DNA of 64,000 nt from Heterotrichella gracilis (lineage: Eukaryota > Sar > Xanthophyceae > Tribonematales > Xanthonemataceae), in the NCBI GenBank assembly GCA_032358255.1, contig JAULBX010026829.1, forward strand, positions 156,685 through 220,684, given 5' to 3'. The translations under genes and the position numbers were made by a program. This document shows positions 1-63,938 of this stretch, in pieces. Under the pieces are notes generated by a model that did no database searches, was not told the DNA's origin, and was given only the letters and a program-made list of their open reading frames with translations. Each line of letters starts with the position of its first letter. The first letter of the stretch is position 1.

Positions 1-300
1 CAGATGGAAGGTCTGTACAACTGGGGATCAGTCCATCCTCAGAAGCCCTAGACAATACACCCTATGCCTTATAATCGTGCGTACCTGTTGCTAGGGTTTG
101 GCTCGTGGCTGGGGAGGTCACCGGCAGTGCGCACAGGATCAGTGTCCTCCTCCTCATGCGATTCAAAGGGGTCCCTCTTGTCTGCGTCCGAGGAAGGCAC
201 CTGGTACAGCTTGCTGATCCCCAGCAGGTCGGCGGGGACGGGGCCCTGGGGCCTCATGATGTTGGGGATCGTCACACCTGCAGGGGTCCAATTTTAAATA
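1..300 (-). other. Last visible exon of the membrane protein gene
   Basis: Exon about 280-90 on the minus strand encodes VTIPNIMRPQGPVPADLLG and an acidic stretch (ESHEEEDTDPVR). It lies between an acceptor CCTGCAG and a donor AACAG|GTACGC, so the protein continues to the left of the window. Confidence 0.55.
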
Positions 301-3300
301 TTAGCGTTTGAAACATAAAGGTTTATTCCCAGCCAGGCGGCAGGGGCGGGGCCTTTGTGCATCATCAATTGCAAAGATCCTGCCCTGATGATTGCTGGCA
401 TAAGGGTTTTGGGCTCAGGGCCTAGGGGTTTGTTTCATACCACTCCCTAAGGCTGAGACGGAAATGGGGTTTTTGGGTGTATGCTTTGGGACACTTTACG
501 CACCTGGCATGGGGTTGAGGGTTCAGCTATTAGGGTATTGCACTCACCTGGCATGGGATTCAGGGTTTAAAGCTTAGGGTTTTGCCCTCACCTGGCGTGG
601 ATGCGCTCCGCCTCACCCCCTGCCGCTGAGCCGCGGGCTGCTGCACAGGCTGTGCACGCACCACCCCCAGGTCGGGCATCTGCTGAAGGAATCGCGCCCT
701 CTCAGCCACAGTCATGCGGCGAAGCACCCTGTCCTGCAAGGGAAGAGAGGAAAGAAAATTTATTTAAATCATTCCAATAAATAAGTCCTGCAAAGGAAGC
801 AAGGTCACACAATTTCACTACCGCTGCATCATGTTGTGAGGTTCTTACTTTGAAAGGCACTGTCATCCGGCGAAGCATCCTGTCCTGTAGAAAGGACGAG
901 AGTAATAATGCATTTTGGATTACCGTTGCGTCACGTTGCGGTGTTTGCAATCTGAATGGAGAAGCAGGAGCAGCACTGTCATCCATTGCAGCAACGCCAA
1001 CCTTAAATTTGCTTATTCCTCTTGAGTTGAACAAACGCGCCTGTTTCGAAACCAGGCTGCCTAACTGTATTTTCTTTGAATATTTATGCGCACACCTGAG
1101 AGAACCCACTGGCCAGGTTGGGCAGACCGAATGCAGGCACCGGCGCTGGCTGCCTGCCCCTGGAGGAGCCCATCTGGATGCCCTGTGGGGGGTCTATGCG
1201 CGTGATGCTGCTGCTGCTCCTGGGTATGTCAAAGCTTGTGGGCAGGCTGGGCAGGTCGTAGCTGCCGCGGTGGCTCACCATGTCATCGGGGTTGCAGTTC
1301 ACCTGGTGCAGCAAAAAAATAGTTGCTTTGTTCCATGCAATCAATCATTTTGTGCACATAATTGACTCAACTTGGTTTTGGCTTATCACATGCAATCCAG
1401 GAGGTCAGACCTCCATCTCCATCAGCACTCATGAAGGAGGAGGAGTGTTTCTGGTATTACTAACGATTGGATTGAACATCTTCCATTTGATTACTTAATG
1501 GATTACATAAACACCAAAATTGGATGATAATAAACAGGGAGGAACGAGTATGCCTGTGTTTGAACAGGCACGTTGGTCAAGAATTCCCTTTGCATTATGA
1601 AGAGGTAACAAGAAAGGAGACAGAGGCCCATTCACCTTGTGCAGGTCATCCACCAGGGACTCCTCGGGAATGGTCTTGAGCACGTCTGAATTGCTGGTGT
1701 TGAGGCTCTGGCGCGTGATCTCCCCGGAGCTGCACTCCGACAGGGCAAAGGGGTTGATGCGCGGGAACACGGGGTTGACCAGCGTGATGGCCCTGGTGGT
1801 GGTGCTGAAGGTGATGTCGCCACTTGGCGGTTTGGTGGGCTCGGTGCTGTGTAGCGTACCGATGGTGGCACCTGGCACAGCAGAAATTGGGGAGAAAGAT
1901 AAGCTCTCAGACAATGACAAATCAAAGGAAATTCATAGCTTCAAGCTAGGAAATACCTGGAAATTCTGGAATTGGTAATACTGCACAGAAGTGCCAGGAC
2001 AGGGCTGTTTGGCGCAAGGCATTTGGGATGAAATGCTAATCTGGCCATACTGCTGGAACGCAAGTATGTACCGTACTGCACAGCCTGTCTTTGAATATGC
2101 AAGTTGGTCAAGAAATCAAAATTTGGGCAAAGAAAGAGAGTCAGTTGAGAGACGGCATTGCCCTCCTGTCTACTATTCTAACCCAACCCTACCTGGCAGG
2201 CACTGAATGGGCCAGCAGCATGGGGCACAAAGAGGCCCAAACCTAAGCTCTAAGCCTTAAACCCCAAACCCTAAACCCTACCTGGCACAGCCCGCAACAG
2301 CCCAGCGGGCAGCTTGGCCTGCAGGGAGGCCCAGATCCCCCTTTTGGGCGCAGCCGCAGGCGCCGCGCCCTGCGGGATGCCAGCAGCCACATCCTCAGTG
2401 CCTGCTGGGGTGAGGCGGTTTAGGTCATCCCTGTGGGCCCCATGGTCCTTCACGCTATCCTCGGTGCCGCTGTGTGTGGTGAACTGCGTGCTTGGGATAC
2501 CCGGGACGGGGTAGTCCCCGGGGCCGCGGGGCTTGTATGTGTGCGTAGGCTCGGAGCGATGGCGCATGCGATCCTGCAGGGGCAAGGAATACGGCGTTAA
2601 ACGTTGGGGTATTACCATATTGGGGATGTTTTATCAGTATCAAGTTTTGGCAGCGTCAGCGTGATGGTGATGGCGCTCAGCACAGGACCCATCACTAGTA
2701 CCATATATGTGTACTTCCTACAGTACAGCAAAGTTTGCAGTGCTCCCAGCTGCACCATGATCACCAATGCCATCACTTCCACACAAGCGCATGCATATCC
2801 GTGTGCGCCTCAATCACCTTCCGTCGGTGCCTGGTGATGAGGAAGCACATGAGCCCCAGCACAGCAGCCAGGGTGATGGCGATGGCGCCCAGCGCTGCAC
2901 CCAGCACAGCCCAATTGGTGGTGCTGGTGCCGCCACTGGAGGTGGTGGTGGGTGGAGGGGGAGGGGTGTAGGCTGCCGACGCCTGCACCAATTGAGTCCA
3001 TGATCAAACTTGATGAGTTTTGAGATTTGTAATGCAACATGGTCGTAGAGTATGCCTTAGTGCTGCTAACCTGGCCTGAGTTTAAATTAAACATAATACA
3101 CGTGTTAAAACCGGCATATCATAATGACACTATGGCCATTGCTGTATTCGAATTTTGAATGGACAATATCAAATGGCTGCATGATTAGCAATACCTGCTG
3201 AGTCCCTGGGACCCCCGACCCAAACTGTGCTAGTGGCGGTGCTAGCTGCGTCTGAGCGGGTGTGACAGAGGTGCCTTGAGTTGCGCCGGTGGTCAGTGGC

Positions 3301-11543: not shown

Positions 11544-14500
11544 ATGAACGCCCTTTCAAGAACAAACTGGGGGTGCTTGAGGCCCCTCCTGCTGCTGTGT
11601 GTGGCAATCTTGGCCGTCAGTGGGTGCAGCTTTCCCACCAAGGCGCGCAACATGACCACTCCACTCTGCGGGCAAGGGCAGGGCAAGACGCATGAGGAGA
11701 TGCAGAGGGCGGGCTACCTGTTTGCCCCCCAGGTGCACTTCCACCCCCTGGAGCAATACCACCTGGGTGAGTGGCCAGGACCCTTGCTGGTGTAACACCA
11801 CCCACAGGTTGTCTGCGGCAACCACCGCAGGGCACAGCGAAGGGAAGCATGAGCCTCTCCAAAGCCACTTCCATTTGTGCTAGCTAGTACTGCAGTATTC
11901 ACTGGAACTCGCAGACTCATGGCACGAGCACGTTATAGTTGGGCATGCTATGTAGGCACCCTACCCTATTCACCCTGTCCATGCTCCGCTGCATTCCACT
12001 CCACTCCTCCTGGCCTGTCACCGCGTGCGCTTATAGTACCCTAATTGTGCAGAGGACCCCAGCCGCTACTTTGACGCAGCGCAAATGCGAGATGCGCTCT
12101 TTGAAAGCACGCCAGACGCAGAGCAGTTTGTTCGTGAGGTAAAAACAAAATACCCTTGCTTTTGTTCTATTTTAGCGGTGCTTCAGTGAAGGGCGCCCTT
12201 GTTACTCACGCCATGCTCCATACCTGCTGCCCTGCCTGTCTGTGTGTGTCAACATCGCTGCTTTGTTAGTCAGTTAGTTAGTTGTGTGCCCCATTTTGAG
12301 GTTCTGCCAAAGTTCACCTGTACACATGTCGTTGGGTTTTCCTTCCTTGCGCTTTCTCTCTAATTTCACCCCTTGATTTGTGCGCAAGGCCTACTCCACC
12401 AACATCGTGGAGAGCATGTGGCTGCCAAAGTCCTTCATCTCCATCCTCAACCAGTCGAACAGCGAAGAGGTGCTGGCGGGGGCGCCCTTTGACAGCCAGG
12501 GCCGATCCCAGGCGGTGGTGTATTTCACCCTGGAGTATCAGGGGGGTGGGCTGTGGTTGTACACCTACCACCTGTACTACAGGTGGGTGAAATGTTCCCC
12601 CATACGTTCATCTCATGTGCTTGTGTCATGCTATGGTACTGGAATATTCCAGACAAGGTCATCATTATCCCCCCTACCAAAGGTGGGAGGGGGATTTCAT
12701 ATCCCCCGCCCACTGGGGGGGGGGTGCCCGCATGAGTATTAATATGAATTAATATGAATATTCATTTCACAAGGTGGGTGGAATATTAAGGTATTAGCGA
12801 TCATACAAGAGGGTAAATGCACTGGAGCATGGGTGACAGTGTAGAAGGGCATTGGAGGCACGTTGTTTGCATGGCGGCACATGATTGGAGGTGCATGATT
12901 GCACATGGTGGACGCATGGTTGCATATGGTTGGCTGGGGGCCAATGGAGGCACACTGCTTGGATGCGCACCCTTCCTCAGCTAGCAGTTAGAATGCCATG
13001 TTGGTACGCATGCGCCATGTCCAGTGTGGAGTTTGAGTCCATACAGCACCCACACGCATCATGCACCAATTCACAGTATGGGACTAGTACTATGGCAATG
13101 CTGCTGCCCAAGGACTGCATCGGTTGGCGTGTGCTGCCAAGGATGCTTTGGCAGTGCTCGTAATGACTCCATGTGGTGTGAATCTGCAGTTTCAACGGCT
13201 GCTCCAACCTGCTGCTTGCAACCTTTTTTCAGAAGTTTGAGGAGCTGGAGTTCATCCTGTGCCCCACCGGGACCCATGAAGGTACGGTAAACCCGAAGCC
13301 CTTAATCAATGCAGGTAGTTAAAACCGCACATCCCAAACCCTACCCTTAAAAGCATGTGTTTCATGTTCATGTTAATTCACTGGAAAGCACTGGGAGCAC
13401 AATGCAGTGTTGCTCGGTGGCGGACATGTCACACACTCAGTGGCGGTGTGTGGGCCAGCATTGCATGCATGTGATCAGTGACAGCATGTGCACCCCGCAG
13501 GGGACTGGGAGCACATCGCAGTGCTGGTGTGCGAGTCAGACATGTAAGATCCGCATCGCTGGTGTGTGAGCCATCATGGCATGCATGTGTTCAGTTGTGG
13601 CATGTGATCAGTTGTGACAGGCATGTGCACCCGCAGGGGATTGGGAGCACATCGCAGTGCTGGTGTGCGAGTCAGACATGCAGCCAAAGCAGCTCGCCTA
13701 CAGCCAGCACGCGTGGACCGAGCGCTTCGACTGCACCCTGGGGGAGTGCACGCTGGCAAACCAGACCCAACCCCTCACGCATGCGGCCCTCAACTCCCAT
13801 GCCAACTACCCGGTGTCGGACACTGAAATTGTGTATGCGGTAGTGAAGCTGGATCAGCTACCCAACCTGGTGGGGCTGTATGTGGTGGATCGCACGCTCA
13901 GCGATCCAAACAAGGTAAGATTGACTGAGATTGACCCAGCACCCAATTTGGAACCTGGTGGGGCTGTATGTGGTGGATCCCACGCTGAGCGATCCACGCA
14001 AAGCAAGATCGATGGCATGTCGGCATGTTGTTGACACAGATCATAAAAAACGACTAAAAATCCTCTAATTTATCGCACCTGCTCTCAGAAATTTGATGAT
14101 GCCACTTCTGACACACTCACGTGCGCAGCAGCTATATTTGCACAAAGGCAGAATTTTACTTGCCCAACCTCATTTGGAAGGTGTTAATGCACCTCCTCTT
14201 AGACTCACGCAAGTGCACTCCTTACCATTCATGTGCCTAAAGGATCCACTCCCCAAACCCTCGCTTGCCAGGTGTTCATTCCCACTGAGAGCAACGTGAA
14301 GTTCTTGCCATTCCCGCAAGCAACCATCCCAGAGAATGCCAGTATTGATGCGGTGTGGGCAACCTACACAGGCACCTGGGGGGCACCCTACTCGTACCCA
14401 TTCACCGTGCAATGCCTGTATGATAACCGTAAGTACAATACGCACATGGATATGGTCTCAACGATTGCCTGTGCAGAGTTCAGGTTGACCTTTATCCCTA

Positions 14501-17500
14501 AGGTTAACCCGCAGCTTATGGATGTGGTCTCAATGGTTACCACCTGCATTGCTATAATCCAAATTCTGTTACCCATCTAATCAATCGATACAATTTAGGC
14601 GTTGACAAAATTGTGCAGTGAGCCTGTGCGTTTCTTGGGGTGCAACAACTTTGATGATGTTTAAGTGCCAAGTTTTAGGTGCCCGCGTCCACACATGCTG
14701 CAGGGTTTTATGGTGTCAGCAAAATTCTTCAAGGTTGAACCCTTCACTGAGGTTGCATGGTGCCCCGCAGAAACCCTAAACCCTAAAGTGAGGTTCCATG
14801 GTGCCTGCAGAGACCCGCCTGGACGCCTGCCCTGAGGACAGCCTGACCTACAAAGTGCTGCTGACCGGCCTCTCAGCAGCCAGCAAGTCACCGGCAGCCT
14901 CTGTCGCTGAGCTCCCCTCAACTGCCATCTCTTCTGATGCATTCTCAGCAAGCTCGCTGGTGGTCAAAGCTGCCTTGGACTCTGTGTACGACGGGGGCTC
15001 GATCACCGGCCCATACACGCGCGCATACTCCTTCTACTTTGGCTTCCCCCAAAGCCCGCCAATCTACAACACCTACCCCGATGCCAACAGCTCGCTGTGC
15101 CCTGAAAATGCTTCGCGTACGTTCAACACAGACAAGTGAGTGCGGGTGGTGGGCTAGAATGCGGCATGGGTCAGTGCTAATTCACCCTAAACCCTAGACC
15201 CAGGTTGTGGGGGATCCCATGCCAGAGTTTGTTGATTTTAACCCCAATGCATGATTATGTGTCAAACAAAAGGCCTACAATGCTATAATGCTCATGCAGT
15301 GTATCATGCACATTGCTGACCATCACCATATCATGCTGTGCATTTTTGCAAAGCCAAAGTTTTTGCAAAGCCACGCGTTGCATTCCACAATATGCAGAAA
15401 TGCGAATGGGTGCGCAATCATAAGATGTCCCTGACACCGTGCGTGTGGATTATTGACAACGATGCCTGCACTCTAAACCCTAAACCCTACACCCTTACGT
15501 TTGTAAAGTCAACAGCAGTGTCTGCACCTTCAACCCTGAGCCCTAAACCCCTTCCGTGTACGGAACCGACATCAATATGTAAACCCTATCTCTACACCCT
15601 TAAGCCTTTAAAACAATCACAGGGGTGCCTGCACCCCAATCCCCCACTCCTACATCTTTCCCTGTGCAGAATCAGCAGCGATGTCTACACCCCATTGGCA
15701 AACCCTAAGCCTAGACCCTTCCATGTGCAGAATCAGCAGCGATGTCTACACCCCATTGGCAAACCCTAAGCCTAGACCCTTCCATGTGCAGAATCTGCAG
15801 CGATGTCTACACCCCATTGGCAAACCCTAAGCCTAGACCCTTTCATGTGCAGAATCAGCAGCGAGGTCTACACCTCTGGCTCTGTGATCAACTTCCTGTG
15901 GGGCACTGCCATTGGCATGCTGCTGTTCTCCTTGGTCATGGCAATCATCATGCTGTTCCCAGGCCTCTTTGCCTCGCACTCCAAGCAAGCCTACGTGCTG
16001 CTCACGCCGTCACTGGCAGGAAATGCACAGAATGGTTTGGAAGGGCTGTCTGGTGCAGGTGAGCAAGTACGAGTTGAAATGTCTCTCAAGTGGATACAGT
16101 CGCATCTGCATATGGTATTGGTCATTGGCTCAATGTTGGGCCGCTGTTCAACAGGATTAATCTAAGGTCAGCGTTGACAGAGCTTGTGCATTGCAGATAC
16201 TGTTGAGTCGAAACCAATGCAAGAACGACGAGCGGGTGCGCTGGCTGATCCAGAATGGCAGTCGACAAGCACGCTGTTGCAGATAGTGCTTGGCACCAAG
16301 CATGACATCTACAGGGCCACACTTGTGGTGCTTGCTACATTGCTGTACGCTGCGGGGGCGGTGCTCATTGGTGTGGGTGTCTCTGACCTGTTCCATCTGC
16401 TCAAGGTGAGGAAACCAATACCTCCCCTTTCTTTCCTCCTTCCCAAATGCCCCCAGACAGAATTCCACTTCCTTTAGCCTCCGGAGTCCGAATGGGCAAC
16501 TGCTCTAAGATTTCACAATCGCTTTGGGACGAATTTGCATCCCTAGCATTGCTGTTGCTTGCTAGGTTTATTTTTCATAATCTCAACCACAATATTGTAC
16601 AAATGTGGCTTGCGCCTGCGCTCATCTTAAACGTTTTGGAAGTCGTTCAGGGTGTAGGGTTTAGGGTAGCCTTTCTTGCAGTGCTATTACTTGCATGCAG
16701 TCAAACTCAGCCTGTTGTTTTGTGCAGGACCTGGTCAATTGGCACGCCTGGAACGAGGTCAAGGCAGTGTTCATCGTGCTCCTGGCAGTGCTGGGCCTCC
16801 TGGACCTCATCATCGCACTGGCAGCCCTCTTTGTGCACCTGCCCCGCCACAGGGACAAGCCAAACGCCAAGCCCCGGGGCTGCTGCTCCCTGCGGGGGTT
16901 CAGGGACTGCCTGGGCCGCCACTCGCGGAGGCTGCGGGTGGTGATGGCGGCCCTCGCGGTGATCGGCATCATGACTGCCATGGTGCTGTTTGGCTTCGCG
17001 TGCGTCATGGTGGTGGGCAGCAAGCTGCTGTCGGAGGTCTGCTCCAAGTTCACAGGGGTACGCGCCATGATCGATTACTATTACCGATTACTGATATAAT
17101 CATAATCACAATTACAGTGTGCGTCATGGTGGTGGGCAGCAAGCTGCTGTCGGAGGCCTGCTCCAAATTCACAGGGGTATGCGCAATTAAAGATTACTTT
17201 TACCATCACAATCACAAATACAATCAATATTACAATCGGCATGTAGTCAGATGACAAATGGGGTGAAAACAGGGTATCAGTAGGGTGACAGCATTATATA
17301 TAAAAAATGCATTTAAATAGTATTATTGGCAGGCGGGTGATTGCCAACTCTCTGCGCCTGGAAACCAACGCGCCTTGTGAGAAACAGGGTGCGTCTGACT
17401 ATCTATTTGACTTTTTCTATGTTTTCCCCTCCATTTCAGATCACTGTGAGCGACGTCAGCGTGCTTGAGGTGTGCATCGACCTCAGCAGCTTTGGGCTCA

Positions 17501-18027
17501 AGATCGGCAAGATTTGCGGCGCACAGGTGACAGGCAGCGACGGTGGCTGGGAGGGAGGGGTTGCTCACACTTTCACTGTGGCTGTTCATCGTTACAGCTG
17601 CCTACTTGACGGCACAGTTTGACAGCTCGGAATGCTCTTTGACTGCAATGTACATGAACTCGTGCGCCCTGACTCAACGTTGCGGGTCTTCTTCCTTTGT
17701 TTGTGTCACTTTCATGTGAATATTGAATACGGTTCCAAGCCTGCTCAACAACGCGCTGCATAGAGACGGCACCCAATGTTTCCTTATTCCACCCATCAAA
17801 TTGTGTGTTTCACGCAGGTGAGCCAGTTCTGCAACGACTGGCAGGACCTGCGGCTGGGCCTCATGGTGCTTGGCTCAGCCTTCCTGGCATGGGCGCACGT
17901 CATCTTCATGTTCCTGGCCATTGTCATGTACTGGGTGGCGGCGCAGTATGTGCTGGTGGGGGGCGGAGGGGGCCCAAATGGGGCTATGCCAGAAAGCGCC
18001 TTTGGCAAAAGGGGCGACGATGAGTGA
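11544..18027 (+). CDS. Vps62-like (DUF946) ectodomain fused to a multi-pass membrane domain
   Basis: Twelve exons (11544-11766, 12053-12138, 12389-12582, 13190-13281, 13637-13914, 14272-14428, 14811-15135, 15853-16058, 16197-16405, 16728-17057, 17440-17526, 17818-18027) total 2397 nt, 798 residues, with every junction in phase. An N-terminal signal or anchor (LRPLLLLCVAILAVSGCSF) precedes a domain with the Vps62/PF06101 hallmarks: APQVHFHPLEQYHLGDPSR, the central GTHEGDWEHIAVLV, and NSHANYP. This family is known from plants and fungi, where its biochemical role is poorly defined. The C-terminal half has hydrophobic segments near 15895-15965, 16315-16385, 16765-16845, 16940-17030 and 17860-17950. 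They are separated by basic and Cys-containing loops (LPRHRDKPNAKPRGCCSLRG). The tail is Gly-rich and ends GKRGDDE. The joining of Vps62 to a four- or five-helix membrane domain is what the exons show; its function is unknown. Confidence 0.82.
13383..13683 (+). repeat. Three tandem copies of acceptor plus start of the GDWEH exon
   Basis: The sequence CTGGGAGCACATCGCAGTG and its surroundings start at 13391 (most decayed), 13505 and 13641, with spacings of 114 and 136 bp. The last copy, preceded by CACCCGCAG, is the coding one. The middle copy also keeps CCCCGCAG|GGGACTGGG and stays near-identical for about 45 bp before a TAA. Copies one and two lie in the intron. Confidence 0.85.
13863..14010 (+). 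repeat. Duplicated 3' end of the NLVGLYVVD exon in the following intron
   Basis: The exon end at 13863-13914 plus donor GTAAGA is repeated 88 bp downstream at 13951-14008. The match is about 90 percent over 55 bp, and the donor GT has become GC (CGCAAAGCAAGA). Confidence 0.85.
14746..14816 (+). repeat. Duplicated acceptor with telomere-like spacer
   Basis: TGAGGTTGCATGGTGCCCCGCAGAAACC (about 14748-14774) and the functional copy ending GTGCCTGCAG|AGACCC (14811) are offset by about 41 bp. The spacer between them is AACCCTAAACCCTAAA. Confidence 0.75.
15664..15890 (+). repeat. Four 61-bp tandem copies of acceptor plus exon start
   Basis: GTGCAGAATC begins at 15664, 15725, 15786 and 15847, exactly 61 bp apart. 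Each unit holds GTGCAG|AATCAGCAGCGA, the start of the ISSEVYT exon, and a tail AAACCCTAAGCCTAGACCC. Only the last copy reads into the exon. Because 61 is not a multiple of three, use of an upstream copy leads to a stop codon. Confidence 0.95.
17001..17230 (+). repeat. 119-bp tandem duplication of exon 10 end, donor and intron start
   Basis: TGCGTCATGGTGGTGGGCAGC starts at 17001 (coding) and again at 17120 (intron). Both copies run through CACAGGGGTA with a usable donor. The second has an AG (ATTACAG) just before it and would be a 59-nt frame-shifting exon if included. Confidence 0.9.
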
Positions 18028-18158
18028 AGGGCGGTATGTGCTGGTTGGTGGCGGCGGGGGCCGGAAGGGGGCCCACGCCAGATTGGTGGCGGCGGGGACC
18101 GGAAGGGGGCCCACGCCACATGGCTCCTGTGGCAACAGGGGCGGTGATGAGTGAAGGC
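17938..18158 (+). repeat. Duplicated 3' end of the coding sequence beyond the stop codon
   Basis: The Gly-rich end (CAGTATGTGCTGGTGGGGGG ... GATGAGTGAAGG) is followed by a copy at about 18030-18078 (GGTATGTGCTGG), then by a third from about 18084 that ends GGTGATGAGTGAAGG at 18144-18158. The copies are in the 3' UTR. Confidence 0.75.
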
Positions 18159-33381: not shown

Positions 33382-35319
<1,938 letters not shown>

Positions 35320-37318: not shown

Positions 37319-39955
37319 TCAGTACGTGTAGTTCTCCACATGGAGGCTGTCCCCACGCACGTACTCGCGGTCCGCTCGCCCTAGGGTGGCCGCCCCGTTC
37401 TTGAGGGCCACGTCCAGGAACGCATTCTGCGCCGCCTCCTTGTTGCCCTCCTTGCCGCCCCAGGCCTTGAGCGCAGATGCTTGCAAGGCGCGGCCGAAGG
37501 AGAAGGAGAGGTACCATGGCCTGCACACAGCGCCACATGCAGGCTGCTCAGCAGGCGGCGATGCTCAGGTGCTTGCGCTATGCACAGCTCCACCAGCCAG
37601 CGCGCTACTCCACGAAGAACCCAGCAGTACCTTGCACTCAATGCATGGAGCCAGCGGTTGTTGAAGAGAATAAAAAGGACACGACAGCGGAACCGCCATT
37701 CCCATTGTGCACTTCTGCGCACTGCCCAGCGTGTTTATTGCATTCATGTTGTGTTGGCAATGGGCTCAGCCTCAGATTGGCCATGCGCAGCGTGCACCAA
37801 GTCCTGTGTGCTGCTCTGATGCAATGCAACCCCTGCCGCACGGGTATCTACATGCAGCCACCAGCTGAGGTGCATTCTTAATTTATCAGTGGACCACACA
37901 CAACCCGCACATCATCCCATACGCACCTCTGCGCCCTGTCGAGCGTGTTCATCGCGTTCAGGTTGGCAGTGGCCTCCGCCTCGGACTGGCCGCCCGATAG
38001 GAAGTGCACGCCCGGGACCGCGGGGGGCACCGTGCGCCTGAGCGCCCTGACTGTGTACTTGGCCACCACCTCGGGGTCCACGGGCTTTGCCTTGATGCCC
38101 GGGGTCACCATGTTGGGCTTGAGGAGGGTACCCTCAAGGAGCACGTGGTGGTCGCTCAGGGCCTGCATGGGACCACAGGGTAAAATGCTTCCGTTTCATT
38201 ATTTTGAAAAACTTGTGAAATTTTGGGAACTACAAAATGGAATAATATTTCTTGATACATCTAATGATGCTATTGCATTTTATAAACTCCAACAAAATCT
38301 ACAGGGAAAATGCCTCTACACATCCCTGGGAGCACCGGGGCGCAAGTACCCCGCCGCCATGCCAGCATTTGGCTGAGCAGGTGCCTCTAGGCATGCAAGC
38401 GACACAGCGCGGGTTGGTAATTACCACTGAAAGATGCAGTACAAGGTTGTAGGTTTGTATGCCAGCAAGCGGTCTTTACCTTGTACACCGCTGCCAGCAC
38501 GCGCTCAGTCACAGCTGCACACGTCTCAATGCTGTGGCTCCCATCTGTCAAAATCTCGGGCTCCACGATTGGCACCAGCCCGTTCTCTTGGCAGATCACC
38601 GCGTACCTAGCCAGGCACCAATGACAAACGTCAGCTATTGTTGTGCGAGAAACTGTGTTGTGCGTGCTTGTCTTGTCACAGCTCCTACCATAACCCCCGG
38701 AACAACCCCATGTTCACTCATGTAGCAATGCAGTGCCGGCCACTCCTCGGCCCAAATCCAGTGCAAAGTACCCAGGCTCAGCGCCATACCTTGCCAGACC
38801 ATAGGCGTTCTCATGGATGGCCAGCTCCGAAGGCGCGCTGTCACTGATCTTCAGCACAGCGCGCCACTTTGCAAACCTTGCGCCTGCCTGGTAGTACTTT
38901 GCACAGCGCGCACCCAGGCCGTCGAGCCCCTGCATTACCAATGGTGTAACTTGGTCACGTGGTTTGTCCTGGTTACTAAAGGGCCCTGCCATTCTATACA
39001 TTTGGAGATGGAACTACCAAGACACAGCTGTTTGTCCAAGCTGTGCAAGGTGACTGCTAGTCTGGCTGTACTGAGTGAAAAATCATGGGATTAACCAAAA
39101 TAATATCACAATGCAGGCTAGAGCGCGCCCATAAGCATGTTGCAGTACACAGGGAAATGCAATGGTATGTGCAGCATACCTGGGTCGTGGTCTCCCCGTC
39201 AGTGCCAGGGAGGATGACCACTCCGGTGTCAACCTTTATGCCTGGCACAATGCCCCTGCTGGTGAGGAGTTCGACCATCGGGGTGCCATCTGCTGCCTTC
39301 TGGTACAAGGTCTCCTCAAACAGAATCTGAAGCAAACCAGTGGTGACCGTTCAAATTGTAGATTCCCTAAAAAACCGGGTTCTCGTGCAGGAATACAGAC
39401 TGGTTGCTATTGAACTAGGAAATTAAGATAGAGCATGGCCATGCCTCAGTCACAGTCAACCAGTTTTTCCACTTACCACACCACTGATGTACTTCTCCAC
39501 CGCTGGAGCAGTGAACAGGAACTCACGAAGGAACCGCCTGTTGGGCTCAGTGTTTTCAACTCCAATGCTGGAAAGCTGCATTGCGGGTCCCCACATGCCC
39601 AGTTAGTCAGTAGCTTCCACATGAGACTGCTCTCATCGACCCAATGGGCACGATACTTGTTCCAACGAGTGTTATATGCTCAAGTCACTGGCACTAGGTA
39701 TATTCACACGGCCCCACAGTAGTTGATGCTGGCTAGTACACACGGCTTCAGCCTGTCACGCTATTGGACTATTGGACCGACACAGATATAGTATGATATC
39801 TAGCACAGTAGTAACAGCAACAGCTGACTCACCCGCTTGCCTATCGTGCCGGTGCTTTCGTCTGCTGCCAGTATTCCCTTTCCAGGGCTTGTGATCTGCT
39901 TGGCAGTCTGGATAAGCTCCTCAGCATACTTGTTCTCAAATGCATTCCCGGACAT
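37319..39955 (-). CDS. FBA: Fructose-bisphosphate aldolase, class I
   Basis: The enzyme cleaves fructose-1,6-bisphosphate to two triose phosphates by Schiff-base chemistry. Exons are 39955-39833, about 39577-39478, 39328-39181, 38931-38790, 38608-38479, 38163-37927 and 37521-37319. From the Met of [20 protein letters not shown] the protein resembles the plant cytosolic type. Blocks visible: [92 protein letters not shown] (Schiff-base Lys), [13 protein letters not shown] and [13 protein letters not shown]. It ends in Tyr (HVENYTY), as class I aldolases do. An upstream exon could extend the N terminus in frame (see finding). The intron between the last two exons holds a decayed exon copy. Confidence 0.95.
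37712..37795 (-). repeat. Decayed exon copy in the last aldolase intron
   Basis: About 75 bp resemble the end of exon 38163-37927: the minus strand reads [12 protein letters not shown] where the exon has [12 protein letters not shown], and the upstream part matches in a shifted frame. It lies about 210 bp downstream of the coding copy. Confidence 0.8.
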
Positions 39956-40072
39956 CTTGCCTAGCTACGACACAGACCATACCAGGACGTCATTAAACAT
40001 AGAGTCACAAGCCCAATAAATACTTTAAAGTGCTTATCGAAACGCGAGAACCCTCGCCAACAGGTAACTCAC

Positions 40073-41165: not shown

Positions 41166-44100
41166 CTTCTTGTTGATCTTGCCCATGGCGTTGCGGGGGA
41201 TAGGGTCCAGTATGGCCACCTGCTTGGGCAGCTGGTAGGGGGCCAGGCTGGAAGCTGCCCACCGCCGCAGCTCGCCCACCTCAAGAGGTTGGGAGGGGTC
41301 CTTCAGGGCCATCACCACCGCGATGGTCTGCAAGGGGGGTGGATGGGGGATGGGGGAGGAGGTTGAGAGGCTTGCAATGCAGGGGAGGACCGTTACGAAT
41401 CTGTAACTCTGGCTGTATTGCTGGATCGCATGCACATCAATGATGGGATGACATATCATCATTTTCATCCCATCTAACCCGCATGCATTGGTAGAAAACC
41501 ATTTCGAACGACCATCGCATGTCCCCAACTCCTAGTTAGCGCAGACATGCACTGCCGCCGCCACAATCGCCATTGTCAACCACACTAGGGCTCCACCTCA
41601 AACCCTACAGCGGCGCAGGCCCCTCCCCACATACCTGACCGTATGCCTCATCCGGCACGCCCAGCACCGCGCATTCGCGCACATTTGGGTGCTCCAGGAG
41701 CACATTTTCGATGTCCAGCGCCGATATTTTGTACCCTCCGTGCTTGATGATGTCCACGCTGCTCCTGCCCTGAGTCTTCCAGTAGGGCGGGCTGCCCTCA
41801 AGCACAACAGTGTCACCTGCAGGAAAAAATTGAATTATTACTGACAGTTTTAGCAAATTGAGGTTGGGACCAGGAGAATGCTGATAACTAAATCCAGTAC
41901 AAATTAGGGTGGGTTGCCAGCACAACAGTGTCCCCTGCAGGGAGGCAATGGGGATGGGATTGGGGGGGTGCAAGAACACACGGATTTGGATGGCAGCCGT
42001 CAAGCACCACAGTGTTATCCACAGGATGAAATTTCAATCCTTGTCTCCTGCAGGGGCCATTGGGGATGCGCCAGTTTGGGGATGCGTGCCAGAAACATGT
42101 CGAGGCCTTCCAAGTGTGCACAAATCCCCACTCCTCCACAGCACACTACAACAACACAGCACCACCCACCGGTCTTGAAGTATCCATCCTCGGTAAATGA
42201 CTCCGCTGTTGCCTCAGGTTTCCGCCAGTACTCCTTGAATAACGTCTTGCCCTTGACAAGCAGCTCGCCTGTGCACCAAGAGTTTGCATTGTTGACAGAT
42301 TTTTGGAGATGGCACCTCATGGCTGGCACCATTTTGTGAAGAGCGGGGTGCATGCATACCAATAATGGGTGCTGTTACCACATGCATTGCCACCTTGGAA
42401 AAACATGCAGTATCAAGAGCGAAAAGTTTCCAAGCGAGCATCATCAGCTTATGCCAAATCAAATGGTCAAGCCCAAAACACTAGTTATCAGCAAGTGTGC
42501 GCAGCTCACCAGGTCCTGCCGGCTCCTCCCCTGCCACCTTGACTTCCACCCCTGGCAGAGGCAGACCCACCGACCCCGGCCTGCGTTCCCCTAGGTAAGG
42601 GTTTGACAGGGCCATGCCAATCTCCGTCATCCCATACCGCTCGAGCAGCTTGGTCCCTGGGGCAGAGGCATTGGGAATGGCAAATCATTTTTTTCTACAA
42701 AAGTGATTTTTCCTGGTCACTTGCATACTTAAGAGTTGACATTTCTTTAAAAAGGCCCGCCCAGCGAGTGCTGGGTGGCAAAAGCTGTGCAAGTGTGACT
42801 GAGCATCTAGCTACACTTTTGTAATGCCTGGCACTGCCGTAATTTGGTCGATCACATGGATTGCACCCAATTGCTCATGCAAATGCTTTCCACATACGCG
42901 CGCACATGCACATGCACATGCACACGCCAGCAACATGCACATGCGGCATGGCCACACACATGCACATGCCCCCCTCCACCCACCCGACAACTCCTCCCAG
43001 CTGTTCATGATGGTGATGGGGCAGGCAGCTGAGCCGCTGATGGTCAGGCGCAGGCGACTGGCCGCATCCCTGCACGCACACAGGGGTTGGGGTGACGATG
43101 CGCGCTGCTTTCAAGCATGGAAAGCCCACTTGATGTATGGCACATCTCGACTTCGTGCACTAAACAGCTTCCACCCCATGCAAAACCCCATGCAGATGCC
43201 ACAGGCGCCATCATGCACTCAATGCGCCCCACCCGCCCACCACCCACCTGGCTTTCTGCTGCTGGTCTGGTGCCATGCCCTGGTAGCGTGTGAGCAGGAA
43301 GGAATACATGGTGGGCACACCCATGAACAGGGTGATGGGGTCATCGCCACGCTGCAAGGGGGGGAGGGAGAAGGGGAGTATCAGCACCTTTGGTGAAGGG
43401 GATGGATTTACATGGGGGCCTATCACAACAACTGGCTGCCCTGCCCAACAACACAGTCTGCTCTCATCCCACATCCCTAGCTTCCACAAATGCCTGCTCC
43501 CCCAGCAACAACCTGTGCCAGACCTCCGCCAGACCGAAGCTGGACACAACCCCACCCACCCGTGCTGCCCTCCACCACCCCAGTCCCCAAATCCCAAGAT
43601 CACGTTCCCATGCCTACAATCACACCCCACATTCCCCATCACACACATGCCCCAACCTACATCCCCCATCCCCACCCCGCCACCCACCTGCAACCTGCGC
43701 CAGACCTCCGCTGGGCTGAAGCTGGGCAGGAACTCCACACACACCCTTGCCAGCCTACAGGACCTCCGCTGATCTCCACCACCCAAACCCACCACTCCCA
43801 AAACCGCATCCCCATGCCTAAAACAAACCCCGCACTCCCCTAAAACCGCATCGCCGAGCCAACCCCCACCTGCAACCTGCGCCAGACCTCCGCCGGGCTA
43901 AAGCTGGGCAAAAACTCCACACACGCCCCCGAGGCATGCGCACAATGCAGCGCATTGACTATGCCGTGCACGTGGTGGAGGGGCAGTGGGTGCAGGATGC
44001 GGTCATCCTCCGACCACTGCCATGCCTGCTGCAGGGCTGAGATCTGTGCCCCGATGCTGCCGTGAGTGTGCAGGGCGCCTGCGGCAATGGGACGGAGGTG

Positions 44101-52028: not shown

Positions 52029-52070
52029 GATGGGTGGGTGCTTAGCTAGATACAGAGCACAACTGCACTC

Positions 52071-52077
52071 CTTATAA
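52071..52077 (-). promoter_or_regulatory. TATA-like box of paralogue A
   Basis: TTATAAG on the minus strand, 43-49 bp upstream of the chosen start codon. It argues for the Met at 52028 and against the in-frame Met at 52088. Confidence 0.5.
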
Positions 52078-52510: not shown

Positions 52511-52526
52511 GTGACATTTTGGCGCC
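52511..52526. promoter_or_regulatory. 16-bp motif with E2F-like core upstream of paralogue A
   Basis: GTGACATTTTGGCGCC contains TTTGGCGC, which fits the E2F/DP consensus TTTSSCGC. It lies about 485 bp upstream of the A start codon and is identical to 57636-57651. Confidence 0.45.
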
Positions 52527-57282: not shown

Positions 57283-58889
57283 AGTGTGTGTGTCTAGGCC
57301 CGTCACAACTCCTCCCCCTTATGCTGCTTTTGAGCTGCTGCTGCTGAACCCCTGCAGGTGCCTGTGGTGTGGCCAAGACTCAACTGTAGCTGACACCTTG
57401 TTGCTTTTGCTCAAGTTGGGGCCTGTGCGTGAGAGGAAGGGTCAGATATGCAGTTGAACATCTTCGCCTATACATCCACACAGGCACACGAGCGAGGCAG
57501 CCATGTTACGCCAGGTTAGCGATCTCGTGAACAACGAGGCTGGGATATGCACAACAAAAAACCCTCCAAAACAAGACCACGGCGGTGGATGACTCAGCGA
57601 CGCAAACGCTTGGAGGTGCCCCACGTTGGACGCCTGTGACATTTTGGCGCCGGGTAGGCACCCATCACCATCTGTAAACCTGAAATCTACCGAAGGACTA
57701 CACGCAGACACTTCTCAGGCTGACTATATCGACGATTCAAACGTACTGCGGTTGAATGGGACAACCAGCAACGGTACTGTGCGGCAGCAGGGTCGGGACC
57801 CCACGACTGTATGCAGTGCCCGCCGCATGCATGGCCACTCGCTATCCACTTTGCAACCACCAAACCCGCGTACGGGGTACAGCCGGAAGTCGGACCCGTA
57901 GCTCGTGCCAACCCACCCAGAGTTCTCGTGTGGCAGCAGGTGCAACCGTGCTGACTGGTCTGGAGGCTCACCTTTGTCGTCCAAGGAATGCTTCCCGCTG
58001 TTATAGCTTAGGTGTGGATTCCACCGTGTTCTAAACCTACGTGCCAGTCTTGATCAAAGCAGCGCAGCGGGTTGAACAAGTGCACATCCACACTGGACAC
58101 GAGCAGTATGTGGGTGCTTGCAGATGGTTGTCAGGGACATAAGCGCCCACGAAGTGCTGCAGGTGGTCTCTGCACCTCCCCCGAGTTGGCGCCACCCCTG
58201 CTTGTCTGGCCCGAGAGACCCTTTTGCAGATTGTCATCAAGCCTGATCAGGCGCCAATTCTAAGGAAGGTACCGGTCAGGTGTCCACCCTTGGGCCATCA
58301 TTTGGCTTTAATCATCTGGGGCTGATTTATCGACCACTGCGTTTGTACCGTGTGGGCCCTCTATCACGGAACATTTGTACCCCCCGCACATAATGAGGCT
58401 GCGAGAGTGCCGTCGCAGGTACAGCAATTCCCGCCTGATATCCGACAGGTGGCTGTAATTTACGTCATATCGCGTAATAGCATTCCTGTTGTAACTCACA
58501 TGATCCACGTGAGGGACAAACGTGCCACGTCAGCTTTTTAGCGCCCTTTTTGTGGCTGCTGCATGCATGTTGGGCAAGTTTCGCAACTTGTTCAAGAGGA
58601 CGGCAGGAGCCTACAGTATGCCTATGCCCAACCGTCAGAACAACACTAGTATCAGGTTTGCCTGGTGAACGTTGAGGCACAGCTTGAAGAAGGCAAGGAA
58701 GCAAGTGAAATACTGTGCCCAGTTGTGTAACCTTCTCCGAGCACTTCTACCAGCTTTTGCAGGTATCAAACAGTTGGTACCAACAAATAAGCCGTCAAAC
58801 GGTATTCCGTACTTGTATCACAAATGCAGCAGTCTCGTACGATCGCGGTGTGAGGGACTTGGCAGGGCTGCGGCGCAGCACCACACACC
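57283..58889. promoter_or_regulatory. Bidirectional upstream region, paralogue B and NOL10
   Basis: A 1.6-kb gap between divergent starts. It contains the E2F-like motif (57636-57651). Open frames here have no recognised features. Confidence 0.4.
57636..57651. promoter_or_regulatory. 16-bp motif with E2F-like core upstream of paralogue B
   Basis: Identical to 52511-52526 and about 355 bp upstream of the B start codon. Confidence 0.45.
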
Positions 58890-61800
58890 ATGTCGCTCAA
58901 AGTTTCGGCGCCCGACGGCGTGAAGGTAAGGCTGGAGGTTGTGTTACCTGTCGTTTATTTCAAGTTGCACAGTTTCTAAACGCCCAGCAGGGCTTCAACC
59001 TGCACTTGCGAGGTGCCATATGCATGCATGCATGCATCCGCAGTCCTCACAATAACCCCCTCTTGCGCTACCACTCGCTCACGCGGTACACTTGCCACTC
59101 GGCCTTACCTGCTTTCAAACCTGCATAACCTGAAGGGTGCTGTGCCCCGGTACCTCCTGAGCGACCTACCTACCCACCGAGCTACCTCCCTACCCCCCTG
59201 GCTTGTACGCATGTGCAAACCACGTCTCCCTCCACCCCCCTCCCTCGCCCCAGGTCTACACCATAAGAAGTAGAGCCTGATCACATCACCTCTCCCCCCA
59301 TCTCCACACCCCCACGCCACCCCAAACACCCACGCACCCCCACCCCCCACCCCAGGTGTACAGCATCAGCAGTGGCAAGAGCCTACCCACCTGGCTCAAC
59401 ACCAAGCAGAAACGCTCACTGCGAAAAGATGAGGCATATGGCAGGCGCCTGGAGCTGCTCCAGGACACCACCTTCCCTGCGGCTTGCCAGCGAATCAAGG
59501 CCACACAGGATGGGGAGTACCTGTTTGCCACGGGCCTGCACCCGCCACAGGTGTGCATGGGGAGTGTTGGATGGGTGGCATGGTGACGTATGCTCCTGAG
59601 GGGCGGGAGGTCGAGGTCTAGAATCCTTACTTTAGGGTTTAGGGTTTAGGGCTGGGGCTGCTCTAGTACACCACCTTGTCAGCGCCTTGCCCAGCGGATC
59701 AGGGCAAGGGGAGTGCATGCTTCCAAGTGGCCTGCACCATCTTTGGTACGCCTGGCACATGAAGGGGGCGCCCAGTGCATTGATAGACCCTTGACGCACA
59801 CAGCTGAGGGAGCGGTGCAGGGCGGGCTGTCACTGCAGAGACAGCATTCCATTTTGAGTCGGTGGCAGCTTTACTCGGATCGCCCTGCAATTCCATCATC
59901 AGTAATGGCACACTCTTGGCGAGCGCCTAAGAAAGCGCTGCACCCCAACCCTAAGCCCCAAACCCTGAACTGCACACTCACGTTGCTGACCCGCTTTGGG
60001 TTCCTTTGTGTGCAGGTCAGGGCCTACGAGCTCAGCCAACTGTCCATGAAATTCAGCAGGCACTTCAGCGCAGAAATCATTGATTTCCAGATCCTGTCGG
60101 ATGATTACTCCAAGTGTGTGTTCATTTGCGCCGACCGCACGGTGGCATTCCACGCCAAATTTGGGGCCTATTTCACGCTGAGGACCCCCAAGACGGCGCG
60201 GGATTTGGCCTACTCCCCAGCCCTTGCGGACCTTGTTGTGGTTGGGTCGGCGCCTGAGCTGTACAGGTATTGGAACATGTGTCGTGGTTAAGGGTTTAAA
60301 TGTGCTTTGCTTAGGGTTTAAGGTTTGTTGTGTGTGGGTCGGCTTTTGAGGGCTGGACAGATATGAGCACAGATACTATCGCATGCTCAGTCACATGTAT
60401 AGGTATACATATAGGCACATGTACCACATCAAGTGTTAGAAATCCCATGCAGCAATCACGTATCAAATACCATGTTCCAAATGCCCCTTGCACCCATTCC
60501 ACAGGATCAGCCTCCAAGAGGGCAGGTTCCTGAGCCCCCTCCCCAGCGCCTCCCCTGCCATCAACGCATGCGGCATCAGCACATCACATGGCCTGCTGGC
60601 GGCGGCCGGGGAGGACGGGTTTCTCGAATGCTTTGATCTGCGGGCACCCAAGGCGGTGGGGAGGCTGGACGCGGCGGCGGCTGCGGGGGCGGCAGGTGGG
60701 GGATGGTGTGGGTGGGATGGGTTTGGGCTTGGTGTGTGAGGATTATTGTGCTCGTGCCAGCACAGTAGCCTATGGCATGTAGGGCGGCGCATGCCTGTGT
60801 TTATAAGCGCCATCATGAGCATGGGCGTCAGCATTGCCATCTCCCATGAAAGCAACATTGGCAGTATCATTAGCATGTGATCATGAGCATCATCATTAGC
60901 AGAATAATCATTAGCATCATCACTAGCATCGTTAGCATTGTCACTAGCATCATCATGCGCATGAGCACCAGCATCATTAGCAGTATGGTTAGTACCATTA
61001 TGAGCATCATCATCATCAGCACCATAATCACTAGGATGATCATGAGCATCATCATCAGCAGCAGCCACCTTATACAGCTCACACCCCACCACCACCACCG
61101 CGTCTCCCAACCCGGTCCCCCCCACCCCCACCCCTTCTACCTTCTGCACAGGCCAGCACCTGTCAGCCCTCCGCTTCGACGACACCGGCCTCCAGATGGC
61201 GGTGGGTACCGGCAACGGCCTGGTGGCGCTGTTTGACCTGCGCGCCACCAAGCCCATGGTGGTGAAGGACCACATGTATGGCTCGCCCATCGTGGACATT
61301 AAGTTCCACACGTCAAATGCAGAGGGCGGGGTGGGGCGGCGGGTGATCAGGTGGGTGATGCAATCTCCTGAGGGCCATGTGGGTGCATGTGGATCACTTT
61401 TACCACGTCAGGAAATGTTCACTGGTCACATCAAACTGTGACAGGACGAGTCGTTGCACTCCAGCAGCTCAGCCAGAGTTGGCACTTGGTACTTTTTAGT
61501 TTACTTTGTAGCTTTTAACCTACTTGTTAGCTTACTTTTTAGGTCACGTTTTAGCTTTTTTAGGTCCCTTTTTAGCTTTTGAGCTCATCACACTATAAAG
61601 CCTCCTCCACCCCCTCCCCGCAGCGCCGACAGCCACATCGTCAAGATATGGGACGCAGGCAGCGGGGAGGCGTTCACCAGCCTGGAGCCAGCCGAGGGCG
61701 GCATCAACGATGTGTGCGTGTGGAAGGACTCTGGGCTCATCATGCTTGCCTGCGACGCACCCAACATCCAGTCGTTCTTCATCCCCTCGCTGGGCCCCGC

Positions 61801-63938
61801 GCCCCGATGGTGCTCCTTCCTGGAGGGCCTGACTGAGGAGCTGGAGGAGACCGCAAATCCTACTGTGTATGATGATTACAGGTAGGTTTTATGTGGAACC
61901 CTGCTTAAGGATTGTGAATTGAAATTTGACTGCCACGAGCTTGCAAACGCGACATGTTGACCAGGATGGATTTCCAAAATCAAACCTACCTCCAGGGCAC
62001 ATCCCGTATAATTATATCCAAATTAAAACATTTGTAAATTGCAGCTGCTTGACTATGCAGTAAAACACCAAAAACATTCTATCAAAACCTTGTTTTCCGT
62101 TTTTTTCCAGGTTTGTGACCCACCAGGACCTGGAATCCCTGGGCCTGACCCATCTCCAGGGCACGCCCATGCTGCGCGCCTACATGCATGGCTTCTTCAT
62201 AAACAACAGGCTGTACCAGAAGGCGCGCCAGATGAGCCAGCCCTGGGCGTACGACACCTGGCGCAAGGACAGGGTGGCGCAGCAGTTGGAGAAGGAGCGG
62301 GGCAGCCGCATCTCGCTGGTCAAGAAGCTGCCAAAGGTGGGGTTGTGGGGCTGTTGGCGTTTTTTTACCCTTTTTGGGGTGGGGTTTCTGTTGTTGGTTG
62401 GGTGCAACGGTGTAGAATACTCCCTCCCCTTACAGGGCCCAGCGGGGACCTCGAGTCGCGCAAGATCGAAACGCTGTTTTATCAGTGCCAGGACAGAACT
62501 GCTTGTCGCCGCATGTGCAAGACTGCCTGCTAATTGCTGTATTGCTGGATGCATGTAACCACATCAACTAACTACCTTCTCGCTAACACCCGGTGCGATG
62601 CTCAGGTCAACGCCGTTGCTGCCGCGCGAATCCTGGCTGCCCAAATGGAGGAGGAGGAGCAGTCCGAGGGAGGGGAGGAGGAGGAGGCCGAGGGGAGCAA
62701 GCCCAAGAGGAAGAAGCACGCGCCCTCCGAGCTCCTCACCGATGACCGCTTCAAGGCTATGTTTGAGGATGACGCCTACACCATTGATGAATATGCGGAG
62801 GAGTATAAGCAGCTGCACCCCAATGCCAGACGTACGCATGCCAGATTGAAACCCTGCTCTAAAACCCTGAGGATAAACCCTAAACCCTACACCAATGATG
62901 AATATGGGGAGGAGTACAAGCAGATGCACCCATAGCCAGACGTGCGCGCATGCCCTAATGAACCCTAGGGTAATTTCGAAATGCTAAACCCTAAAATCTA
63001 TTTCATGGATGAATACTTGCAGGAATGCGAGGCGCATGCGCATGCACTCTTAAAACCCTGGGCTAAATCCTGAACTTTTGCACTGCTGTACTTCAAAGTC
63101 AAGAAGAAACCCGCACCCCTCTGAGCTGCTCACTGATGATTTGTTTAAAGCCATGTTTGCCTACGCTGTCGATGAGGAACTGGGGGAGTACAAGCAGCTG
63201 CACCCCAACGCCAGAAGTATGCATGCCATGCTGGAACCCTACCTTTCCTACCTTGCAGCTAACTAGACCAGCTACAACCCTGAACCCTGCTGTGCTGTTC
63301 CCCCTTGATTTTTTTTTATTTGCTGTACTACACTAAATCAGCTTTCAATTACTAAATTGCTGGTTCTCGCCCTTGCAGCTGATCGCAAGCGTGAGCAGCA
63401 GCTGCTGCGTGAGCACTTTGAGGAGCTGGATGGGGAGGATGATAGCGATGGGGAGGAAGGGGAGGACGATAGCGATGACGAGGAGGATGAGGAGGAAGGG
63501 GAGGACATGCGACAGAGCAACAAGGCTCGCACCAAGGTGAGCCACCAGCATTGCCGTTACCCGCACGCACAACAATAAGTTGCTCTAGAGCAAAAATGGA
63601 AGGCATTCATGTACTAGGTCTTGCAAAAACCCGTTGTTTTCCGGCCATTTTGTAAGAAAATGTTTTCCGCCTTTTGCAAGCATGTATAATACATACATCA
63701 GAAGTCACCCATCTTAAAACCCCGACCCCCTTTGCCACAGGCTCACGCCAGTGCCGGCCCCACTGGGAGCCACCAGCCACGCATGTACGCCGCAAGGGAC
63801 GATGCTTCAGCTGCCGCGTTCAACAACCGCGAGTCCCTGGCCCCACAGGCTGCCATGCCATTGGCTGATCGGGTGGCTGAGCTGGACAAGGGGGGGAGTT
63901 ACTCGGGGAGGAAACGGTCGCTGACTGGGAGCAAGGAC
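58890..63938 (+). CDS. NOL10: Nucleolar protein 10 (NOL10/Enp2), C terminus beyond the window
   Basis: NOL10/Enp2 is a WD40 protein of the small-subunit processome needed for 18S rRNA maturation in the nucleolus. Ten exons are visible: 58890-58925, 59356-59550, 60016-60266, 60505-60695, 61152-61350, 61624-61881, 62111-62336, 62606-62831, 63379-63536 and 63741-63938. They give 646 codons with all phases consistent. The last donor (AAGGAC|GTGAGT) shows that more follows; the human protein has about 690 residues. Family blocks: MSLKVSAPDGVKVYSISSGK, LPTWLNTKQKRSLRKDE, DYSKCVFICADRTVAFHAKF, SADSHIVKIWDAGSGE, PRWCSFLEGLTEELEE, TVYDDYRFVTHQDLESLGL and LSPEEEEE-like acidic runs. KRKKHAPSELLTDDRFKAMF and DEYAEEYKQLHP are typical of the NUC153 segment. 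The acidic stretch EELDGEDDSDGEEGEDDSDD is encoded by exon 9. Confidence 0.94.
59634..59652. repeat. Telomere-type tract in NOL10 intron
   Basis: TTTAGGGTTTAGGGTTTAGGG, nearly three perfect units, between exons 2 and 3. Confidence 0.88.
60820..61075. repeat. (ATCATTAGC)n-like low-complexity tract in a NOL10 intron
   Basis: Degenerate ATCATTAGC/ATCATGAGC 9-mers and ATC triplets fill about 250 bp of the intron between 60695 and 61152. The open frames across it are artefacts of the repeat. Confidence 0.88.
62739..63225 (+). repeat. Copies of the SELLTDDRFKAMF...EEYKQLHPNAR exon end in a NOL10 intron
   Basis: The end of exon 62606-62831 is repeated partly at 62888-62938 (NDEYGEEYKQMHP, 111-bp offset) and more fully at 63098-63220 (SELLTDDLFKAMF, EYKQLHPNAR, 384-bp offset). 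Both sit in the downstream intron. The first is preceded by ACCCTGAGGATAAACCCTAAACCC. The second keeps a GTATGC donor-like end. Confidence 0.93.

Follow-up and report, generated by a model that had tools for sequence, protein, structure and literature searches.

Genes and duplicated exon edges in the window

The stretch analysed here, called the window throughout, comprises 64,000 nt of contig JAULBX010026829.1 (positions 156,685-220,684, labelled C431:156685-220684 in the analysis) from a 68.5-Mb draft assembly made up of 903 contigs. Its introns repeatedly carry a second copy of the edge of a neighboring exon, and unrelated or telomere-like DNA lies between many of the copies. One predicted product of the window, proteasome alpha-5, is 89% identical to named Chlorella proteins and 97% to one unnamed sequence; the genome was therefore taken as that of a Chlorella relative, of the class that we take to be Trebouxiophyceae.

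Gene models came from a home-made gene finder with 13 states, trained on this genome's sequence. It found sharp splice signals (AG/GTRNG at donors and TGCAG/G at acceptors, with the slash at the exon border) and sensible proteins: HCF136, Vps62-like, ZNF598-like, proteasome alpha-5, TXNDC9-like, aldolase, AAE13-like, SUFC, and NOL10. Several of these names are presumed, having been assigned by recognition; the NOL10, AAE13-like, and aldolase predictions match solved structures of their families. The extra copy of an exon edge, hereafter the decoy, was often called as an additional small exon, so the statistics treat any exon shorter than 75 bp as part of the intron around it (shorter than 60 bp when assigning clusters to predicted junctions).

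Self-BLAST retrieved 18 local repeat clusters in the window and none in three Markov-3 shuffles, and 13 of the 18 fell on a predicted splice junction. This is in line with an earlier note on this DNA, which had counted about 18 duplicated exon edges. Its periods of 61, 88, 94, 96, 107, 111, 114/136, 119, 151, 182, and 227 bp were all recovered, its 384 bp was measured as 393 bp, and periods of about 118 and 209 bp were also found. No exon edge was seen in the 41-bp array (23164-23259), which consists of telomere-like DNA within an intron. Among the genes listed in the note, the Vps62-like, ZNF598-like, aldolase, AAE13, and NOL10 genes are indeed affected, and the SUFC case fell below the detection threshold used here.

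The Vps62-like gene (plus strand) presents acceptor-type duplications at 13390..13680 (lag 114/136) and at 15615..15874, the latter a 61-bp array of 3.6 copies whose unit contains AAACCCTAAGCCTAGACCC and TGCAG. Its donor-type duplications lie at 13864..14012 (lag 88, 89% identity, 27-bp spacer) and 17000..17204 (lag 119, 91% identity), and a further duplication at 17959..18157 (lag 126) holds no splice site and spans the stop codon, as placed by eye. The ZNF598-like gene (minus strand) has four donor-type duplications: 25629..25811 (lag 107), 26191..26395 (lag 94), 26763..27035 (lag 227, with homology stopping a few bases beyond the donor), and 27266..27563, with three to four copies of about 96 bp, counted by eye, and CCCTAAA-like DNA within the units.

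Also on the minus strand are an acceptor-type duplicated edge at 704..905 (lag 151), a donor-type duplication in the aldolase gene at 37709..37991 (lag 209), and two duplications in the AAE13-like gene, one acceptor-type at 41783..41941 (lag 118) and one donor-type at 43501..43928 (lag 182). In NOL10 (plus strand), an exon copy at 59449..59738 (lag 203) has a first copy that ends 8 bp short of the predicted donor and a spacer that ends in (TTTAGGG)3 directly 5' of the second copy. A donor-type duplication at 62710..63240 (lags 111 and 393) has telomere-like tracts between its copies.

Excess of exon-edge copies across the genome sample

The sample comprised 246,089 bases: the window plus 20 of 22 fetched stretches (loci numbered with L). 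L005 and L007 were excluded for their foreign-looking composition (35-38% GC, CpG not depleted), by which they are probably non-algal contigs in the assembly. The pattern recurs beyond the window, as the earlier note had supposed, although unevenly. Of the 79 repeat clusters in the sample, 60 fell on predicted splice junctions, and cluster densities ranged from 10-12 per 10 kb in L003, L008, and L010 to none in L006, L009, L012, L014, L017, and L022. An ungapped scan gave 140 matches, some of them harmonics of one array, against none in the Markov control.

The earlier note had proposed aligning each intron to its flanking exons and comparing the result with shuffled pairs, which was done here on the 246 kb (346 merged introns, own-edge match at a score of at least 44, length-matched introns from other loci as controls). 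An own exon edge was copied in 39 of the 346 introns (donor edge in 24, acceptor edge in 19), whereas shuffled pairings gave 0/3460 for either edge. Antisense own-edge controls gave one match for donors and none for acceptors, and exon-middle pieces matched the adjacent intron in 1 of 161 comparisons. Introns with a copy had a median length of 465 bp versus 243 bp without, so the claim that introns are enlarged held.

The exon-proximal copy appears to be the functional one, again as the note had claimed: the first copy in 38/38 donor cases and the second in 19/22 acceptor cases. These counts are partly circular because the gene finder picks the copy, and homologous proteins agree with the choice in two genes. 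Copy identities range from 68 to 97% across clusters, consistent with the long-running process and copies of mixed age that the note had suggested, and lags are mostly 65-245 bp. At least one duplication was found in 20 of the 40 genes with three or more robust exons. Over 40 predicted genes, duplication density correlated with median intron length (rho 0.57), with GC at third codon positions (rho 0.48), and also with telomere-like tracts.

Telomeric DNA at the duplications

Telomere-like DNA between the copies is a feature that the earlier note did not mention. Tracts of at least 10 bp numbered 98 in the sample, compared to 1-5 for five distinct permuted words (six were run, two being rotations of each other). 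A tract occurred in 23 of the 79 clusters, where 7.1 were expected and the maximum over 300 random placements was 15. Spacers were richer in tracts than the noncoding flanks: 21 in 5,128 bases versus 10 in 10,760 (4.10 vs. 0.93 per kb, Fisher 6e-5). For 14 of the 22 best pairs with a tract, it lay only between the copies.

A stricter test was limited to junction events whose spacer measured 15 bp or more (39 in all) and compared each spacer with an intron stretch of equal length past the decoy. The spacers held 18 tracts and the stretches beyond the decoy only one; by event, 12 had a tract in the spacer only, none beyond only, one in both, and 26 in neither. Plain tandem duplication should put equal numbers of tracts beyond the decoy, and this result thus counts against it.

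Exact (CCCTAAA)3 had 834 matches in the whole assembly, overlapping ones counted, and its reversed control had none. We fetched 28 of these sites, 20 from the top of the match list and eight more, at one or two per contig; the draw was not random, but sites were not picked for repeats. A direct repeat across the tract (score of at least 44) was present at 10 of the 28 (9/20 and 1/8), compared to 123 of 2000 random noncoding points (6%). Inverted repeats were found at 0/28 sites and 2/2000 random points. For the sample's own tracts, direct repeats occurred at 28 of 89 and inverted repeats at none. L044 is a clear case over the threshold, with 34-bp repeats that abut the telomeric tract; L045 and L057 have the same look with repeats of 26-27 bp, below the threshold, and L061 has a shorter flanking repeat of 10 bp, by eye. 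With a combined criterion (a score of at least 44, or of at least 30 with abutting copies), 13 of 40 fetched telomeric sites were flanked by repeats.

Facing tracts within 30 bp of each other were oriented head-to-head (TTTAGGG...CCCTAAA) 13 times, at 12 places, and tail-to-tail once (p 0.002). Head-to-head polarity is what telomerase acting on both 3' ends, followed by joining, would predict, and it is the same as that of end-to-end fusion of short added tracts. The genome also encodes a match to the telomerase RBD family PF12009 on contig C626 (54.9 and 41.2 bits, cut-off 25). At L024 (C33:134880-135520), a head-to-head pair stands next to the only tail-to-tail pair found. A count of donor-then-telomere versus telomere-then-donor order (357 + 203 vs. 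74 + 50) was withdrawn as confounded, coding DNA lying upstream of a donor.

Possible origins: break repair with filler or plain tandem duplication

We consider it fairly probable that the duplications are scars of DNA-break repair that involved a staggered break, fill-in, joining, and sometimes telomeric filler. Two nicks some tens of bases apart would make the staggered break, and fill-in from both sides, perhaps by a step like that of CST-Pol alpha, would double the stretch between them. The ends would then be joined, often with extra DNA between the copies, which in a sizeable share of cases would be telomere repeats; their simplest maker would be telomerase on the exposed 3' ends. The scar would be kept when the duplicated stretch leaves the coding sequence across a splice site or a stop codon, because the exon-proximal copy still yields a normal mRNA. 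The intron would lengthen by the copy plus the filler, and the decoy, presumably never spliced in, would decay afterwards.

The best-placed alternative is plain short tandem duplication (by slippage, microhomology, or unequal exchange) without filler, the intron half decaying faster because both intron copies drift while selection holds the exon. We regard it as rather unlikely, although several observations suit it. The copies touch or nearly touch in 20 of the 79 clusters, and the overlaps of 4-14 bp seen in some fit microhomology-mediated tandem duplication. Moreover, in 22 of 37 donor events the intron parts are still more alike than 95% of unrelated pairs. In the remaining clusters a spacer separates the copies.

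Mean similarity across the 38 donor events was 0.80-0.84 in the final 25 bases of the exon and dropped to 0.75 in the five bases that open the intron, to 0.49 in positions +10 to +14, and to about 0.34 past +35, whereas a simulated neutral tandem copy at equal exon divergence should retain 0.69 at +10 to +14. The intron part fell below the 5th percentile of its own decaying-tandem simulation in 24/37 donor events when gapped and in 8/38 when ungapped. Raising the indel rate to 0.6-1.0 per substitution brings the simulated intron-side profile near the observed one, but leaves the telomeric findings unexplained: neither the flanking repeats nor the head-to-head polarity is predicted by plain tandem duplication. 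Thus, of the earlier note's proposal of a tandem duplication that leaves the mRNA unchanged, the placement of the copies where the mRNA is unharmed was upheld, and a purely tandem origin was not.

Other observations weigh against repair with telomeric filler, besides the touching and overlapping copies. Among the 22 best pairs with a tract, seven had it only inside the copies and one both inside and between. Among the 57 spacers that measure at least 18 bp, a shuffle test classed 22 as telomere-like, compared to 8 of 57 flanks; therefore, most filler is of another nature or too old to be recognized. The last eight fetched sites included just one over the direct-repeat threshold, and at L050 the TTTAGGG tract adjoins the right copy, whereas under simple one-ended addition it should adjoin the left. 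The threshold was passed at only one of the 12 head-to-head sites (L030, 39 bp, 100% identity, copies abutting the tract); L025, with 18 identical bases abutting its tract, stayed below it. Finally, only 4 of the 13 flanked telomeric sites were free of telomeric hexamers in the 40 bp beyond the copies; some sites therefore arose when a unit with telomeric DNA already in it was duplicated in tandem.

Survival of edge duplications and a probable preference for splice sites

The 79 clusters divided into 47 at junctions, 14 in introns, one intergenic, four in exons, and 13 mixed, whereas random placement would give 29.0, 25.3, 4.8, 5.5, and 14.4, respectively. The preference for exon edges that the earlier note had described is thus present as an excess at junctions, but simulation attributes part of it to survival bias. 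Untargeted duplication with decay, simulated with the same ungapped detector, gave a ratio of edge to intron plus intergenic cases of 1.0-1.3. The observed ratio, in a set that includes harmonics of some arrays, ran from 1.18 (junction inside the copy) to 2.14 (with mixed cases). Most of the splice-site bias can thus be survival: duplications within an exon disrupt the protein, and those running over its edge spare it. The cases that span a stop codon fit this account; besides the one in the Vps62-like gene, there is another at L008:8557-8704 and probably one at L010:9642-9853, by eye. An earlier BLAST-based edge ratio of 3.1 against a simulated 0.7-1.0 was not relied on, the simulation having lacked the low-complexity filter.

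Some real preference for splice sites beyond survival is nevertheless likely, given the splice sites in the telomere-flanking repeats and the tracts near junctions. A splice site scoring at least 6 was present in 10 of the 13 telomere-flanking repeats when the first copy was considered and in 11 of 13 for either copy. Noncoding segments drawn at random contain such a site in 12% of cases, and an annotated junction is spanned by 15.5% of random segments that are not wholly exonic; against the sum of both, p was 3e-4 to 3e-5. In the sample, the 30 bases downstream of donors contained 13 tracts (6.5 expected, p 0.016), and the 50 bases upstream of acceptors contained 17 (11.1 expected, p 0.06).

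A broader proposal is that in this lineage telomere-maintenance enzymes (telomerase, perhaps with CST-Pol alpha) routinely work on breaks inside transcribed genes and truly favor splice junctions, and that this is a leading source of intron growth and of the material from which new splice sites arise. We put it forward only tentatively, as less likely than not. G-rich 5' splice sites might prime telomerase, or exon-intron borders might break more often.

Homologous proteins and decay of the extra copies

In the Vps62-like gene, the gene finder kept two GDWEHIAVL-like copies (at the acceptor-type duplication of lag 114/136), and four of four homologous proteins have only one. For NOL10, the alignments of human NOL10 and yeast Enp2 reach only the first copy. 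The sole relative found for the L010 protein lacks two of the extra pieces; a third region, also bearing additional copies, is wholly absent there and thus uninformative. This L010 gene (L010:4248-9700) encodes a coiled-coil protein and is dense in decoys, and its only relative above the cut-off is a Pyramimonas protein. At a guess, its role in this Chlorella relative may be flagellar.

Decoys might also be retained for a function, in alternative or recursive splicing or in regulated transcript decay, which we judge improbable. The exon parts mismatch at 8.9, 7.8, and 19.3% of codon positions 1, 2, and 3, slightly more skewed than simple decoy drift predicts, and the exon parts of decoys are better kept than the neighboring intron. 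On the other hand, a frame-shifting indel was present in 23 of 55 decoys, and their splice sites are weaker: the GT is retained in 25 of 38 decoy donors, with a mean donor score of 2.0 vs. 5.4 for used donors. Junction lags showed no preference for multiples of three (12, 10, 11). The tests of codon position, frame, and splice-site strength thus did not support selection on the decoys. A statement that 14 of 16 exon-only lags were multiples of three was withdrawn as pseudo-replicated; there are six independent places, four with a multiple of three, two of which are glycine-rich arrays.

Alternatively, new introns could have been gained through tandem duplication of an exon piece containing AGGT. 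This is a known mechanism, as far as the accessible parts of the sources go (PMC3443670, PMC4974935), and the usual lags are of intron-like size. In the L010, Vps62-like, ZNF598-like, and NOL10 genes, however, the donor decoy sits within a longer predicted intron and the next exon does not follow directly. Those were the genes read closely, out of 60 events. We give this origin a slim chance.

An introner-type mobile element inserting with target-site duplication would also leave a copy-filler-copy structure, but we give this still less weight. The filler forms no evident repeat family: 11 of 48 spacers matched elsewhere in the sample, mostly via telomere-like stretches (by eye), as did 3 of 48 controls. 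Mobile-element filler was looked for among these 48 spacers in the sample, plus one spacer assembly-wide, and was not found. That one, a 147-bp filler at L010:6570-6716, has at least one further partial match in the assembly (65 bp, 82%, at G000:C28:70520-70584), and may be a templated insertion, judging from this match. Besides, the duplications at the 13 flanked telomeric sites measure 18-77 bp, as against target duplications of 3-9 bp in some introner families, according to the accessible part of PMC9860276.

Assembly error or haplotype mixture is hardly credible, even in a draft of 903 contigs with some foreign-looking ones, because collapsed or repeated reads would yield almost identical copies, placed without regard to genes, whereas 73 of the 79 best pairs are less than 93% identical (rounded values) and splice sites are respected.

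Comparison with known systems

The literature cited in this section was accessible in part, and what follows is limited to those parts. In mammals, short interstitial telomeric sequences at double-strand breaks comprise internal telomeric repeats, extra bases, and some target duplications (PMC2246262, PMC7215372). Target duplication was reported at 6/130 rodent and 4/25 primate loci (PMC2246262), and at 3/66 loci plus complex cases (PMC7215372); head-to-head stretches appear in one case (PMC2246262, PMC7215372). In human, 31% lie in introns, described as fitting random insertion (PMC7215372). The algal sites share with these the internal telomeric repeats above chance and the flanking duplication, and a telomerase domain is encoded here. 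They differ in the frequency of direct repeats (10 of the 28 fetched sites) and in the strong splice site held by 10-11 of 13 telomere-flanking repeats.

In human and mouse cells, small tandem duplications arise when CST-Pol alpha fills in breaks that have 3' overhangs (PMC8355091). The staggered break, the fill-in, the joining, the small duplicated stretch, and the telomere machinery would all be alike in the alga. Telomeric filler, which the alga has, does not appear in the accessible parts of that paper.

In the potato RdRp gene, one case of intron gain via tandem duplication over an intron-exon boundary has been described (PMC4974935). The boundary-crossing duplication is common to both, but in potato it made a new intron, whereas in the alga it seems to lengthen introns that were already there, and the decoy is apparently unused. 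Plant telo boxes have been proposed to spread through the action of telomerase at free 3' ends within transcribed genes (PMC3022908). These are single motifs, mainly at the 5' ends of genes, and the accessible parts of the source show neither flanking duplications nor a splice-site context.

Each step proposed here has a precedent. For the combination of telomeric filler, flanking duplication, and splice junctions, a literature search with most subscription papers and bioRxiv preprints outside its scope found no paper uniting the three. It likewise found none on telomerase, intron gain, double-strand breaks, and telomeric repeats together, and none on Chlorella with interstitial telomeric repeats and introns.

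Isolated ancient cases are the usual basis for inferring how introns grow and how spare splice sites originate. Should the sample be representative, extrapolation gives thousands of events in one genome with their junctions still legible, tying together break repair, telomerase, and intron evolution. This makes it testable whether telomere enzymes mend breaks within genes. Moreover, it calls for caution in gene prediction, since decoy exon edges were read as exons by the gene finder here.

Other features of the window

Five of the 18 repeat clusters in the window are not on a predicted junction. Two of them, 17959/18085 across the stop codon and 59449/59652 in NOL10, are described above; the others are one within an intron only (1552/2083), one mixed (2650/2864), and one ATC-type simple repeat (60851-61050). 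Finally, positions 48995-58087 on the minus strand hold tandem paralogous coding blocks with long glycine/proline-rich arrays, which we take by eye to be VWD-type and pherophorin-like.

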